Positions 3,971-16,350 of a stretch of 43,792 nt of DNA are shown here, piece by piece. The stretch lies in IMG/VR virus record IMGVR_UViG_3300008450_000087, positions 1-43,792 of that record; one strand, written 5' to 3'. Positions within the stretch are counted from its first letter, which is position 1, and each line of letters begins with the position of its first letter. A model generated the notes under the pieces. It saw only the letters and a list, made by a program, of their open reading frames with translations, searched no databases and was not told where the DNA came from. Source of the stretch: a virus. The position numbers were made by a program, and so were the translations under genes.

Positions 3971-4531
3971 TTACTCTAAAATTCCCCACTGATCCGCCAT
4001 CGCATCGGCGATCCCTTGGTACGTCCGCGACCGATTCTTCCAGCGCTCAGGGCCAGGCGGCATATGGTGAACAACCGGCGCACGACCATCGACAACATTG
4101 GTAGGAACAAGCAACGGCAATCCCTTAAGCCACAAGCATGTAGCCTTGGTTTCGCCATGACCGAACATCCAAGGCTGAATAATTTGATCAGGCTTGCGAA
4201 TCTTGCTGCTGATAACGCTGATCGGGTTTTCTAGAGCAATTCTCGGAATTGGAGCATCCAGCAAGAATTGAACAAAGTCCAAAGCAGCTCCCTGGCGACC
4301 GTCTGCAATCTTTTCCTTGAAGTGGCGAGCACCACTAACCGCAAGGTCAGTGCAAGGCGGATGGCAGATCATAAGATCCCATCCGTCATTGATAACGTCG
4401 CGCAAATCACCTTGATAGTGATTCCCGGGCTGTTCAGTCGGCAGCAGGTCGCAGCTCATAGCGTCGTGACCCATCGCTGCAAATGCTTCGCGCACACGGC
4501 CTGAGTATTCGCAGGCGATTAATACTTTCAT
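3971..4531 (-). CDS. Miniature cytosine-C5-methyltransferase-like protein
   Basis: 186 residues from ATG 4531 (GGAG upstream; ATGA overlap with the preceding gene). Residues 1-15 (MKVLIACEYSGRVRE) form the SAM-binding motif I strand and loop. HPPCTDLAVSGARHF at 57-71 is motif IV with the catalytic Pro-Cys (Cys60), and ALENP at 99-103 corresponds to the ENV motif. There is no room for the usual target-recognition domain and motifs IX-X: typical C5 methylases exceed 300 residues. It belongs to the short phage proteins annotated as DNA cytosine methyltransferase; activity and target are unproved. It may protect phage DNA or take part in base modification with the cassette at 12.4-15.0 kb. Confidence 0.7.
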   Translation of the reverse strand: MKVLIACEYSGRVREAFAAMGHDAMSCDLLPTEQPGNHYQGDLRDVINDGWDLMICHPPCTDLAVSGARHFKEKIADGRQGAALDFVQFLLDAPIPRIALENPISVISSKIRKPDQIIQPWMFGHGETKATCLWLKGLPLLVPTNVVDGRAPVVHHMPPGPERWKNRSRTYQGIADAMADQWGILE

Positions 4532-4716
4532 TCTGTATCTCCAATTAGCTGTTTTAGACATGGTTGTTCGCTAGCATACCTCTCAAGCCTAGCCTGATCC
4601 CGCTCAGACAGCGTATATGACGCCAGGTAGCGCTCTTTGATGCCTGATTGCTTGGCGATGGTGGCTAGTGGGTATCCTTCGCGGATGAGGGTGCGGATTA
4701 TTTCATTGGATGTCAT
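4528..4716 (-). CDS. Small HTH protein
   Basis: 62 residues, ATG 4716 with GAGA upstream. IREGYPLATIAKQSGIKERY is a clear helix-turn-helix (G-x-P-L-A-x-I-A, turn at SGI). It could be a small repressor or activator of the surrounding operon. It overlaps the coiled-coil gene upstream by 14 bases and the methylase gene by ATGA. Confidence 0.6.
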   Translation of the reverse strand: MTSNEIIRTLIREGYPLATIAKQSGIKERYLASYTLSERDQARLERYASEQPCLKQLIGDTE

Positions 4717-11814: not shown

Positions 11815-12306
11815 ATGCCACGCTCAATAATCCGCGAAGTAGAAGATGAATATGGCGAGCCGTTTTGGGATGTTGTGGCCGGATATGCTGCGGATGGCCA
11901 CAGCATCCACTCGACAGCGGATATGCTCGGCTATGCGTCCGATACGCCGTTTCGCCGGCTGATTGCTCGGCATGGCGTCACGATAAAGTTTGCCAGTGCG
12001 CAAGAATCAGTGTTTCAGAAAGAGGCGCGAGCCAGCAGGATTGGGCGATGCTCTGAGGCGCAACTGGCCGCAACTAAGACAGCCAGCGCCGCAAACACTG
12101 GCTATATTTATCTTGACTACAAAGGCGTTCGGGATACACTCGCCGGGCACGCTAGGCGACTAGGCATGTCGATTAGCACGGTTCGCAAGCGGTATGCTGC
12201 AAATCCTGATCCGGTGCATGTGTTCTTTAAGGGGTCGCATGTTGTAGTGCCGATTGGGAAGGGCTGGGGCGAGTTTAAGGATAGTGATAAGGGAGGCTGG
12301 TTGTGA
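11815..12306 (+). CDS. Putative DNA-binding HTH protein
   Basis: 163 residues from ATG 11815. Two possible helix-turn-helix segments are visible: residues ~20-45 (DGHSIHSTADMLGYASDTPF) and ~108-130 (GHARRLGMSISTVRKRYAAN). The C-terminus is beta-like with a WGEF motif. Likely a regulator or accessory replication factor; there is no known family name I can attach. It is followed by an overlapping small gene that starts with a strong ribosome site. Confidence 0.65.
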   Translation: MPRSIIREVEDEYGEPFWDVVAGYAADGHSIHSTADMLGYASDTPFRRLIARHGVTIKFASAQESVFQKEARASRIGRCSEAQLAATKTASAANTGYIYLDYKGVRDTLAGHARRLGMSISTVRKRYAANPDPVHVFFKGSHVVVPIGKGWGEFKDSDKGGWL

Positions 12307-12434
12307 CCACCCGCCGCTACCAAGTAAAAACAACCGGCAAGCCAGCTTTTAGCATGATATGCTCAGAATGCCTTAAGGACGCGACAGCATCCTGCATTAA
12401 AATTTTTGGAAATAGACTGGAGTGGGTGAGATGA
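12303..12434 (+). CDS. 43-residue CxxC protein
   Basis: GTG 12303 sits six bases after GGAGG and overlaps the previous stop; its own TGA overlaps the ATG of the ibrB-like gene (ATGA 12431-12434). The product ends SMICSECLKDATASCIKIFG then NRLEWVR, with C-x2-C and a third cysteine, perhaps a small metal site. Strong coupling on both sides makes it a real gene and probably part of the cassette downstream. Confidence 0.65.
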   Translation: MTTRRYQVKTTGKPAFSMICSECLKDATASCIKIFGNRLEWVR

Positions 12435-13078
12435 ATTTTGACTATTTGGCAGACCTTCCAATCGACGAGCGAGTCGAAGAAATCAACCGATTGCGCGAGA
12501 TGATTCACGCGCACAGCCCATTCAATTCTGAGCCTGTCGACTTCGTGCGATGGGTAAAGAATGACATTGTGCATGCAAACGACTACAACCCGAACAGCGT
12601 GGCTCCGCCGGAGATGAAACTGCTCGAGCATTCCATTATGAGCGATGGCTATACTCAGCCAATTGTCACATGGCCAAACGAAGGTATCGAAGTGGTAGAC
12701 GGCTTCCACAGGCACCGAGTCGGCAAAGAGTCTCCAGCGATCAGCGCCCGCGTGCATAGCTATCTACCCATAGTTGAGCTGAAGGCTGGCCAGCATGACC
12801 GCAATGATCGGATGGCAGCAACCATTCGACATAATCGAGCGCGCGGCGCTCACAAAGTCGAGTCAATGTCGGAAATTGTTGTTGAGCTAAAGCGCCGTTT
12901 TTGGACTGATGAGCGCATTTCTACAGAACTTGGTATGGATGCTGATGAGGTTTTGCGTTTGCAGCAAGTTACTGGACTGGCAGGGCTGTTTGGCGACGAG
13001 GCCTTCAGCGAGGCATGGGAGGCTGTTTCGTTCGACGAGGCAGACGAATTGGAGCTGATTGATGAATCGAAAGTTTAA
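12431..13078 (+). CDS. ibrB: IbrB-like ParB-fold protein
   Basis: 215 residues from ATG 12431 (GGAGTGG upstream). Residues 43-110 form the ParB/Srx nuclease-like fold: VKNDIVHANDYNPNSVAPPE, LLEHSIMSDGYTQPIV, then VVDGFHRHRVGKE at 88-100 with the GxHR nucleotide-binding motif. This matches IbrB, known from enterobacterial prophage-like islands, where it works with IbrA to raise expression of eib genes. Residues ~120-185 (MAATIRHNRARGAHKVESMS and a predicted HTH) resemble the ParB linker. The ParB fold can bind or hydrolyse nucleotides (CTP in ParB, ATP in Srx and serine kinases). It is followed within one operon by the IbrA homologue, as in known IbrAB pairs but with two genes between. Confidence 0.85.
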   Translation: MNFDYLADLPIDERVEEINRLREMIHAHSPFNSEPVDFVRWVKNDIVHANDYNPNSVAPPEMKLLEHSIMSDGYTQPIVTWPNEGIEVVDGFHRHRVGKESPAISARVHSYLPIVELKAGQHDRNDRMAATIRHNRARGAHKVESMSEIVVELKRRFWTDERISTELGMDADEVLRLQQVTGLAGLFGDEAFSEAWEAVSFDEADELELIDESKV

Positions 13079-13469
13079 GCGCGTTTATCGGCATTACCTA
13101 GAATGTGAGGAATATCAAGGTGCGATGTGGAAGGTTTTGCCGCCTTCCGAGCGCATTGGCATGCCAGAGGCGTCTGCGGCGCTCATGATAGATTATGAGG
13201 CCTTTCTATCCGCTTGCATGCTTGTGCTAGAGCGGTGGCCAAATAGCTGCGACGTTAATCTAAGCGCCTCAGTCATCAATCACCAAGCATGGATTGGGCA
13301 CGCTGCATGCTACATTCACCACGGAGCAAGCGAAGACCTTACAAGGCTCGGCTGGCGCATGATGACGGAAGAGCAGCAAGAAATGGCAAACCTGGCCGCT
13401 GACATTGCTATATTGGAATGGAGAGATAGGTATGAGCGTGCAAATCCTAAACTTGTCAAAAGACCGTAA
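13062..13469 (+). CDS. Unknown protein within the Ibr cassette
   Basis: 135 residues from ATG 13062, overlapping ibrB by 17 bases, with GGAG upstream. Rich in aromatic residues, histidine and cysteine (INHQAWIGHAACYIHHGASE), all-helical by composition; the H-x2-W-x2-H-x3-C-x2-H-H cluster could bind a metal. No family recognised. Its retention between IbrB and a GNAT protein suggests a role in the same process. Confidence 0.7.
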   Translation: MNRKFKRVYRHYLECEEYQGAMWKVLPPSERIGMPEASAALMIDYEAFLSACMLVLERWPNSCDVNLSASVINHQAWIGHAACYIHHGASEDLTRLGWRMMTEEQQEMANLAADIAILEWRDRYERANPKLVKRP

Positions 13470-13809
13470 AGACTTCTATTTGCTGATGGGGCCGTACTTC
13501 GGCTCTAGAGCTGTAGCAAAAGAGGTAGGAATTAACATTTACGACGATGACGATAAGGAATGGTTTGGCGCTTTTGTCGATGGCTCTCTGATTGGGTTCG
13601 CATCGGTTAGAAAGTCGGTAGTTTCTGACTGCTACGTAAAGCCAGCATGGCGATGGAATGGAGTATTTTCTGCGCTGCTATCAAGAATTTTGCTTGCATT
13701 CCCATGCAAGCTAACTGCAAACTGCACAAAAGCCAGCCTAGGTACATTCATTGCGCTTGGCTTTTCCGAAAAGTCATCGACTAAGAACTTCACTCGAGTA
13801 GAGAATTGA
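13432..13809 (+). CDS. Short GNAT-fold acyltransferase (Mom-like candidate)
   Basis: 125 residues from ATG 13432, six bases after GGAGAG and overlapping the previous gene by 38 bases. WFGAFVDGSLIGFASVR at 44-60, SDCYVKPAWRWNGVFSALL at 65-83 (beta4 and the acyl-CoA loop, here R-x2-G-V-F instead of R/Q-x2-G-x-G/A) and SLGTFIALGF at 102-111 follow the GNAT order. The protein is close to the minimum size of the fold. The phage Mu DNA-modifying protein Mom is also a GNAT-fold protein that acts on adenine in DNA, so with IbrA/IbrB a DNA-modifying role is possible but unproved; an ordinary acetyltransferase is the alternative. Confidence 0.7.
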   Translation: MSVQILNLSKDRKDFYLLMGPYFGSRAVAKEVGINIYDDDDKEWFGAFVDGSLIGFASVRKSVVSDCYVKPAWRWNGVFSALLSRILLAFPCKLTANCTKASLGTFIALGFSEKSSTKNFTRVEN

Positions 13810-13810
13810 C

Positions 13811-15019
13811 ATGCCAAAGAAAGGGTTAGGGCTTAGCGTTTTTGACGCAGCAAAAGAGAGAATTGCTTTTACGTTTGATCACTTTGATCGCGTATATTTG
13901 TCGTTTAGCGCTGGTAAGGATTCAACCGTAATGCTGCATATGGTGGCCGCCGAAGCTAGAGAGCGAGGGCGAACAATTGGCGTGCTAATGATCGACTGGG
14001 AGTGCCAGATAGGCCTAACGATTGATTTTGCGCGCAACATGCTTGATGAGTATTCAGACGTTATCGTGCCGTACTGGGTTGCGCTTCCAATGAAGACTTG
14101 GAACGCATGTAGCCAGATAGAGCCAGAGTGGACGGCGTGGGATCCTGACAAAAAGGATTTATGGGTTCGCCAGCCTGATAAATCCAGCATTACAGATGAG
14201 TCGTTTTTCCCGTTCTATTACACTGGCATGCCATTTGAGGAATTTACGCCAGCGTTTGCGCAGTGGTATGCAGAAGGCAAGTCATGCGCATGCTTCGTCG
14301 GTATCCGCGCAGACGAAAGCCTAAACCGTTTTCGCGCAATTGCGCGCGATGACAAGCCAACTTTTATGGGTAAACAGTGGACTACGCAGGTAGAAGGAAT
14401 CGCATGGAACGTATACCCAATCTACGACTGGAAGACAAAGGACATTTGGCGGTTTCATGGCAAGACGGGGCTTGAATACAATCGACTGTATGATCGGATG
14501 CACCAAGCCGGCATGAAGATCAGTCAAATGCGCATTTGCGAGCCGTTCGGTGATGAGGCGCGCAAAGGTCTATGGCTGTATCAGATTGTTGATCCGGCCA
14601 TGTGGGCAAAAGTAGTTTTGCGCTGCGCAGGTGCTAACACCGGAAAGATGTACAGCCAGGAAAAAGGCGCCATCATGGGAAACCACAGCATCGCGCTTCC
14701 AGAAGGCCACACTTTCGAGAGCTTTGCTCGACACATTTTGCGCACCATGCCAAAGCCAACCGCCGAGCATTACAAGAACAAGCTGGCGGTGTATCTCAAG
14801 TGGTGGAGCAAGCGCGGCTATCCAGACGGCATACCAGACTCTGCTGACAAGTCGCTAGAGAGTCGCGGAAAGGTGCCAACCTGGCGAAAGGTTGTAAAGA
14901 CATTCCTGAAGAATGACTACTGGTGCAAAGGCCTTGGATTTAGCCCGACAAAAAGCACCGCTTATCAGAGGTACTGCGAGCTAATGAAGCGGCGACGAGC
15001 AGAGTGGAATAATATTTAG
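13811..15019 (+). CDS. ibrA: IbrA-like PAPS-reductase-family protein (DUF3440)
   Basis: 402 residues, starting one base after the GNAT stop. The PP-loop of the adenine-nucleotide alpha-hydrolase superfamily is clear: SFSAGKDSTVML at 31-42. CACFVGIRADESLNRF (about residue 160) is the second substrate-binding block of the family, and WKTKDIWRF follows. The C-terminal ~150 residues are the DUF3440 part that separates IbrA from true PAPS reductases. The family activates a substrate by adenylation; DndC and TtcA relatives use this for sulfur insertion in DNA or RNA. It ends at a strong terminator and is the last gene of the plus-strand operon. Confidence 0.88.
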   Translation: MPKKGLGLSVFDAAKERIAFTFDHFDRVYLSFSAGKDSTVMLHMVAAEARERGRTIGVLMIDWECQIGLTIDFARNMLDEYSDVIVPYWVALPMKTWNACSQIEPEWTAWDPDKKDLWVRQPDKSSITDESFFPFYYTGMPFEEFTPAFAQWYAEGKSCACFVGIRADESLNRFRAIARDDKPTFMGKQWTTQVEGIAWNVYPIYDWKTKDIWRFHGKTGLEYNRLYDRMHQAGMKISQMRICEPFGDEARKGLWLYQIVDPAMWAKVVLRCAGANTGKMYSQEKGAIMGNHSIALPEGHTFESFARHILRTMPKPTAEHYKNKLAVYLKWWSKRGYPDGIPDSADKSLESRGKVPTWRKVVKTFLKNDYWCKGLGFSPTKSTAYQRYCELMKRRRAEWNNI

Positions 15020-15768: not shown

Positions 15769-16350
15769 ATGAACCACGAAGAATTGATGGCAGTCGCAGA
15801 GTCGCACGGAGAATGGCTGCGTAATGATGATTGCGGATCACGCGCTGACCTGTACGACGCTGACCTGTACGGCGCTAACCTGCGCGGCGCTAACCTGCGC
15901 GGCGCTGACCTGCGCGGCGCTAACCTGAGCGGCGCTAACCTGCGCGGCGCTAACCTGAGCGGCGCTAACCTGCGCGGCGCTGACCTGCGCGGCGCTGACC
16001 TGCGCGGCGCTAACCTGCGCGACGCTAACCTGAGCGGCGCTAACCTGCGCGGCGCTGACCTGAGCGGCGCTAACCTGCGCGGCGCTGACCTGCGGTGCAT
16101 GGGCAACCTAAATAACATTAAAACAATCCAAGCAGACCTCTGGCAAATTGGTTACACGCACGACACGATGCAGATTGGCTGCCAGCGACATTTGATTGCT
16201 GAATGGTGGGCATTTTCTGATCCGGAAATATCAAGCATGGACGCGCGGGCTCTTGCTTGGTGGGCAGTATGGAAGCCTATTTTGCAGGCGATGATTGCAG
16301 CTTCTCCGGCCGAGCCGACTGGGTATGTTGAGAAGGATAAGCGGAAATGA
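15769..16350 (+). CDS. Pentapeptide-repeat protein
   Basis: 193 residues; ATG 15769 with AGGAG upstream. Residues ~26-110 are about 17 tandem A(D/N)L-x-x pentapeptides ([15 protein letters not shown]), which fold as a right-handed quadrilateral beta-helix. The C-terminal ~75 residues ([20 protein letters not shown]) are a separate helical domain typical of phage members. Qnr/MfpA proteins of this fold mimic DNA and bind gyrase; a similar DNA mimic could protect the phage against host defence or topoisomerase attack, but this is inference. The DNA repeats are nearly identical (15-base units), suggesting recent expansion. Confidence 0.88.

Follow-up and report, generated by a model that had tools for sequence, protein, structure and literature searches.

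A mobile phage cassette joining IbrA and IbrB to an obligate helical partner and optional candidate tailoring enzymes

Record annotations name adjacent genes of the IbrA and IbrB families ‘co-activator of prophage gene expression’, a label that stems from E. coli, and the question raised here is what such genes do in a phage. The window, i.e. the whole stretch of DNA that was analysed, is IMG/VR virus record IMGVR_UViG_3300008450_000087 with 43,792 bases and genes for portal, major head protein, terminase, tail, endolysin, helicase/primase, exonuclease, and single-stranded DNA-binding protein. Four genes at 12431-15019, all on the + strand, form a cassette in the order IbrB-HEL-GNAT-IbrA that probably alters DNA or another nucleotide target chemically:

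12431..13078, + strand: IbrB, 215 amino acids, ParB/sulfiredoxin-type, with DGFHR and RHNxARGxH motifs, PHROG 2159
13062..13469, + strand: HEL, 135 amino acids, the all-helical third component
13432..13809, + strand: GNAT-fold accessory protein, 125 amino acids, PF13673
13811..15019, + strand: IbrA, 402 amino acids, PP-loop (PAPS reductase/CysD-type) followed by a C-terminal DUF3440

IbrB and HEL overlap by 17 bases, HEL and GNAT by 38 bases, and a 1-base gap precedes IbrA. A search for Rfam elements around the cassette gave none. All four genes are under purifying selection, with ratios of nonsynonymous to synonymous substitutions (dN/dS) against the nearest relative, locus L002 (loci are numbered with the prefix L), of 0.013 for IbrB, 0.051 for HEL, 0.026 for IbrA, and 0.208 for GNAT.

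A preliminary description of this DNA had recognised IbrA as a DUF3440 protein with an intact PP-loop, and rightly so. DUF3440 scores 121.5 bits (Pfam cut-off 25; E=4.6e-35), PAPS_reduct 56.4 bits (cut-off 22.5; E=5e-15), and PHROG 2302 matches at 2.9e-89, while the loop itself, SFSAGKDST, is intact and of the ATP type. Further, S33, G35, K36, D37, S38, D62, E64, R166, E169, D206, and W207 are kept in 30/30 relatives, and a motif P-x-x-DW-x-x-x-DIW lies downstream. Compared with solved structures, the IbrA profile matches CysD (8.7e-10) and FAD synthase (2.7e-9), followed by PAPS reductase (7.3e-7) and tRNA U34 thiolase (1.9e-4). A family match to TilS is weak (0.017). CysD and FAD synthase transfer adenosine monophosphate (AMP) to an oxyanion. 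With these two as its nearest relatives, IbrA would most likely pass AMP from ATP on to an acceptor and so activate it, as far as sequence comparison can tell.

DndC shares the PP-loop fold, and an analogy to sulfur insertion by DndC and TtcA had been drawn at the outset. IbrA would then put sulfur into DNA, with IbrB as a DndB-like partner, both of the latter belonging to the same ParB superfamily. The resemblance of IbrA to DndC is weak (E 0.014; PADLOC model 1.8e-4), and the DndC equivalog TIGR03183 reaches 14.3 bits against a cut-off of 290.4. DndC requires an iron-sulfur cluster with C280 (PMC11662687), whereas the best cysteine columns of IbrA, C372 (22/30) and C243 (17/30), are replaced in 8 and 13 of the 30 relatives, all of which retain the PP-loop residues. 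As no cysteine is family-wide, a cysteine relay or iron-sulfur centre is not the common mechanism of the family. Moreover, cysteine desulfurase, DndD, and DndE are not annotated in the cassettes examined. With AMP-transferring enzymes as the nearest solved relatives, the sulfur analogy is weakened and we regard such a reaction as extremely unlikely.

The PP-loop superfamily is also rich in tRNA-modifying enzymes, so that RNA (tRNA or mRNA) might be modified instead of DNA in the fashion of TilS, TtcA, or ThiI. The similarities to tRNA U34 thiolase and TilS point in this direction, but those to CysD and FAD synthase are far better, and ParB-type partners are companions of systems acting on DNA, Dpd and CmoX among them. 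No tRNA genes were found in the window. Altogether, an RNA target appears very unlikely.

IbrB had been described as a ParB-fold homologue, which the family comparisons confirm. It matches PHROG 2159 at E=3.7e-66 and Pfam ParB_N at 17.8 bits, under the cut-off of 26.3, and the family profile finds ParB/Noc CTPase structures at 1.1e-6 and the free serine kinase SerK weakly, at 0.05. Residues D90, G91, H93, and R94 of the DGFHR site are invariant among 29 relatives. IbrB probably binds a nucleotide as well as a nucleic-acid target. Its constant partner is IbrA: tblastn against 50,697 phage records yielded 216 matches for IbrA and 218 for IbrB with a nearly identical breakdown by host genus, and such closely matching counts speak for an association beyond chance. 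The pair is also found in bacterial chromosomes, namely as ybdNM in E. coli (PMC9068703) and lmo1309/1310 in Listeria (PMC7020466). Among cultivated phages, Streptococcus CHPC1148, Mycobacterium Nebkiss, Pseudoalteromonas XCL1123, Microbacterium Rasputia, and Pseudomonas Amjad_SA carry it. The literature found on the biochemistry of IbrAB and DUF3440 holds annotation and regulation only, with an earlier prediction possible in Iyer 2013 (NAR, gkt573). HEL, the GNAT cassette, and the EctC fusion presented below are described in no publication found, the 2013 survey of phage DNA modification lying outside this set; GenBank record XCL1123 already labels genes as ‘ectoine synthase/ParB multidomain protein’.

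Regulation is the reading closest to the annotation. IbrB would bind DNA and, together with IbrA and HEL, activate late or prophage genes, while GNAT and EctC would modulate this regulator or acylate host proteins. This is in line with the co-activator label and the E. coli IbrAB complex (recounted in PMC4541368), and also with location, as the cassette often lies just before terminase or at the border of early and late genes and closes the + strand block of the window. However, a regulator has no need for an invariant ATP-type PP-loop, an EctC with a complete set of iron ligands, or methyl- and glycosyltransferase neighbours, and activation could follow indirectly from DNA modification. We therefore consider pure regulation rather unlikely.

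HEL, noted earlier as a helical protein between IbrB and GNAT, is indeed all-helical in its AlphaFold2 (AF2) model, which has a predicted local distance difference test (pLDDT) score of 97.5. A search of IMG/VR with a HEL-only profile returned 559 relatives, and the best 80 loci were examined. IbrB is present in 80/80 and IbrA in 79/80 of them, the remaining locus (L142) ending soon after HEL. Cassette genes in these loci all lie on the same strand, with 94% of gaps at <=50 bases, and HEL occurs in several gene orders; nine loci have it joined to the C-terminal end of IbrB as one protein. Thus, HEL is a newly recognised and, where present, obligate partner of IbrB and IbrA; it is not detectable in one clade of IbrAB loci, nor in the E. 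coli-type pair. Its motif reads WxxSC-x4-L-[ST]-x4-N[HRQ]xAW[ILV]G[HQ]A, and invariant or nearly invariant residues include E16, W59, S62, N73, A76, W77, G79, A81, A109, and A113. No sequence match was found in PDB, no Foldseek match to PDB at E<=0.001, nothing above a curated cut-off, and none in PHROG, NCBIfam, or PADLOC. The best VIA Z was only 3.5 over 80 residues, and the single BFVD match, unnamed and 32% identical, is most likely a family member. The model is consistent with an unrecognised fold, a missing match being no proof of a new one. In Mycobacterium phage Nebkiss, a GIY-YIG-like endonuclease gene (L086:4634-5008) sits between IbrB and HEL.

The 125-residue protein has the GNAT fold ascribed to it in the preliminary description, with PF13673 at 25.1 bits (just above the cut-off of 23.6), an AF2 pLDDT of 91.6, and a best structural match of Z 13.8 and root-mean-square deviation 2.2 over 113 residues to acetyltransferase 3f8k. 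The N-terminal signature DFYxLxGPxFGSR...YDDxxKxW runs through the whole family. R74 and G77 of the coenzyme A (CoA) pyrophosphate loop, R/Q-x-x-G-x-G/A, are invariant in 11 phage members, while the last position is mostly not G/A; in the window the loop reads RWNGVF and ends in F, departing from RxxGxG/A. Acyl transfer by this protein is hence plausible, not certain. GNAT-only searches retrieved 12 viral and 4 Clostridiales-type genome loci, and 16/16 are IbrAB loci. Eleven of them run IbrB-HEL-GNAT-IbrA, and the other five, L179 and the four genomes, have IbrA-GNAT-IbrB; the protein of L179 is a true relative (hhalign 99.3%). These loci were found only with the GNAT alignment, in a pattern-based search that reaches near relatives alone; none were found in GenBank phages at E 0.01, nor in IMG/VR by single sequence. 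GNAT has no counterpart in Amjad_SA, in spite of 80.6% IbrA identity, or in L009, L012-L014, and L016-L017, and at least three gains or losses are required to account for its distribution on the IbrA tree. It is therefore an optional yet faithful IbrAB accessory and not part of the core. Of the four-gene linkage considered earlier, the IbrA-IbrB-HEL part is borne out in 79 of the best 80 HEL loci, with GNAT as the optional member.

Mom of phage Mu is a GNAT-fold DNA modifier, and the window GNAT had been called Mom-like. The predicted structure upheld the GNAT fold, but no Mom structure stood in the lists of fold matches, and hhalign against a single Mom sequence gave a probability of 0.5% (E 0.12). 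Likewise, the annotation of Mu shows no IbrAB genes next to mom. Kinship with Mom is thereby weakened and was not supported by sequence, for the one Mom sequence compared.

The cassette moves as one block among phages whose surrounding genes are unrelated. Flanking regions of the GNAT-bearing loci L005, L006, L007, L008, L011, and L015 share 0-1 homologues pairwise, and the four genes and their order are kept. In 21 loci, an ectoine synthase (EctC) protein (PF06339 132.7 bits, cut-off 27; L-ectoine synthase structures matched at 1e-21) is either joined to the N-terminal end of IbrB or encoded inside the cassette, in shuffled orders:

EctC fused to IbrB: L145:1592-2503, L123, L143, L152, L158, L162, L163, L086
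EctC as a separate gene: L062-L064, L144, L150, L156, L165, L167, L087

The iron ligands E57, Y84, and H92 are kept in 19/19 of the EctC proteins, as are S23, R25, T40, Y52, and H55; only N38, a carboxylate contact, is altered (residue roles from PMC6344544). EctC and the window-type GNAT never share a cassette. EctA was not found in eight EctC phage records, several being fragments; there is thus no sign of ectoine production by these phages, and ectoine synthesis was rejected as the role of EctC. A stand-alone paralogue of the IbrA C-terminus, ~100 amino acids long, follows HEL in the EctC subfamily (L062:10801-11070, L087:5296-5604, L123:3745-4065, and ~20 others).

Other enzymes accompany IbrAB elsewhere. 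In Microbacterium phage Rasputia, glycosyltransferases, a GNAT, and a methyltransferase precede IbrA and three ParB genes follow, the whole spanning the record ends; this cluster (MT639646; L190:16040-21097, L191:1-1890) resembles a large modification island. The Rasputia GNAT (PF00583 49.5 bits) was dropped as a relative of the window GNAT (hhalign 0.4%), which leaves an independent association or a distance too great to tell. A PHROG 11826 methyltransferase lies inside the cassette of Arthrobacter phage Laroye and Bacillus phage 031MP004. In many loci with IbrAB only, an SNF2-type helicase is located upstream of IbrA (e.g. L034:3640-5124, L186:2258-3493, L185:1740-2948). It takes position -1 in 20 contigs and also precedes IbrAB in phages of Streptococcus and Flavobacterium. 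L192 and L195 have genes of similar size in its place, without a Pfam family match. In L028 (2305-4629), IbrA is immediately preceded by a RAMP-type protein and another PP-loop protein, which is CysH-like; a CRISPR locus resembling type IV may thus lie beside IbrAB.

Helicase neighbours of this kind bring to mind a defence or counter-defence moron, in which IbrA and IbrB would use up or alter nucleotides, or mark DNA, and thereby exclude competing phages. PP-loop and ParB-superfamily proteins do occur in Dnd, Ssp, and BREX-4 (PMC12839542, PMC10853773), and both the chromosomal pairs and the movement of the cassette among unrelated phages would suit such a role. On the other hand, the PADLOC matches to BrxP and DndC are weak, 1.3e-4 at best, and a nuclease effector is not a constant member of the cassette. 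We consider a defence or counter-defence module quite unlikely.

The reading we prefer, which we hold to be evenly balanced between true and false, is that IbrA adenylylates and thereby activates a target, guided by IbrB and HEL, and that GNAT, EctC, or methyltransferase tailor the product depending on the clade. IbrA would move AMP from ATP onto an acceptor, IbrB would bind a nucleotide and probably also the nucleic-acid target, and HEL, an obligate partner that is fused to IbrB in some phages, would belong to the same complex. The activated target would then be substituted, and the substituent elaborated by GNAT in the window, by an EctC-type cyclase in the sister subfamily, and by methyltransferase or glycosyltransferases beside IbrA elsewhere. 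These accessory enzymes are associated with IbrAB in the loci, and we infer their chemistry from their families. EctC forms a ring out of an amide and an amine, and amines are what GNATs acylate. Together with methylation, such reactions are easier to reconcile with an amine-bearing adduct, as in lysidine synthesis, than with sulfur. Phage DNA would be the likeliest target, modified as a protection against restriction, by analogy with Dnd, Dpd, and CmoX and given the phage setting. ParB-type proteins accompany DNA modifiers in these three systems (PMC12839542, PMC12783734), and a phage enzyme proven to modify cytosine is reported to have ParBc genes next to it (PMC12783734).

Several points weigh against this proposal. 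Chromosomal pairs such as ybdNM and lmo1309/1310 represent a setting where a role on phage DNA is not obvious, and the papers found mention no modified base in a phage with IbrAB. All EctC cassettes that were sampled fall into a single IbrA clade and possibly go back to one acquisition. Furthermore, the CoA loop is gone from four clostridial relatives of GNAT, and acyl transfer is perhaps not what this protein does throughout. Finally, DNA as substrate is argued from analogy and from the phage setting. The preliminary description, largely right in what it observed, is thus partly supported in its interpretation: the idea of a nucleic-acid modification pathway is strengthened by the fit of GNAT, EctC, methyltransferases, and glycosyltransferases, the parts on Mom and sulfur are weakened, and DNA is its presumed substrate.

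A bolder version of adenylylation, which we consider rather unlikely, would see IbrA-IbrB-HEL as an undescribed core for phage DNA hypermodification, where a base is adenylylated and receives an amine-bearing group, HEL presents the target by means of a new fold, and GNAT or EctC-type enzymes acylate or cyclise this group. If true, one subfamily would bear an ectoine-like ring on its DNA, and the system would be spread over phages of many bacterial phyla. In either version, a vague co-activator label would give way to a testable pathway, i.e. a mobile system with an obligate third protein and swappable tailoring enzymes. If the target is DNA, a widespread modification chemistry would be added to the conflict between phages and hosts, and this would explain why the same pair is found in phages of Pseudomonas, Streptococcus, Flavobacterium, Mycobacterium, and others.

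Two further reading frames stand directly upstream of the cassette:

11815..12306, + strand: helix-turn-helix (HTH)-like gene, 163 amino acids, weak HTH_23 match (0.003), upstream neighbour
12303..12434, + strand: CxxC open reading frame, 43 amino acids, 4-base overlap with IbrB, membership not supported

Relatives of the HTH-like gene lie downstream of IbrA in L003 and L004, and with such a variable position it is probably a neighbour and not part of the cassette. Five overlapping genes had originally been counted, of which the four listed at the beginning stand, GNAT and IbrA being separated by their single base. The fifth, the CxxC peptide, was dropped as a member since tblastn found no relative in any fetched locus; a family match was also lacking, and the reading frame may be spurious or lineage specific. 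Neither a tyrosine nor a serine recombinase turned up in the record, which is linear and of unknown completeness, and a lytic lifestyle is only suggested. The same phage encodes a second possible DNA-modifying protein, a PHROG 757 DNA methyltransferase (3974-4561, - strand; 2.4e-71), and a pentapeptide-repeat protein (15769-16350, + strand; PF00805 119.4 bits) shortly past the endolysin gene.

Among known systems, E. coli IbrA/IbrB and YbdN/YbdM of K-12 resemble the window in their adjacent genes for IbrA (DUF3440/PAPS-reductase) and IbrB (ParB-like, ParB_N), with a biochemical activity reported for neither in the papers found. The window cassette differs by the addition of HEL and GNAT, by the order IbrB-HEL-GNAT-IbrA, and by being phage borne. 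The ectoine pathway likewise combines a GNAT-fold enzyme (EctA) with the cyclase EctC, which here are accessories of two IbrAB subfamilies with the EctC site kept. However, IbrAB cassettes never hold both, EctA was not found in the eight EctC records, and N38 is replaced. In phosphorothioation by Dnd/Ssp and 7-deazaguanine modification by Dpd, too, the enzyme that modifies the base or backbone is paired with a member of the ParB superfamily (DndB, DpdB), whereas IbrA is devoid of conserved iron-sulfur cysteines, DndA/D/E and DpdA/C are not annotated in the cassettes examined, and HEL has no counterpart there. CysD ATP sulfurylase and eukaryotic FAD synthase are set apart from IbrA by its C-terminal DUF3440 domain and its ParB-like partner, but they share with it the ATP-type PP-loop, the P-x-x-DW-x-x-x-DIW motif, and the best structure matches.

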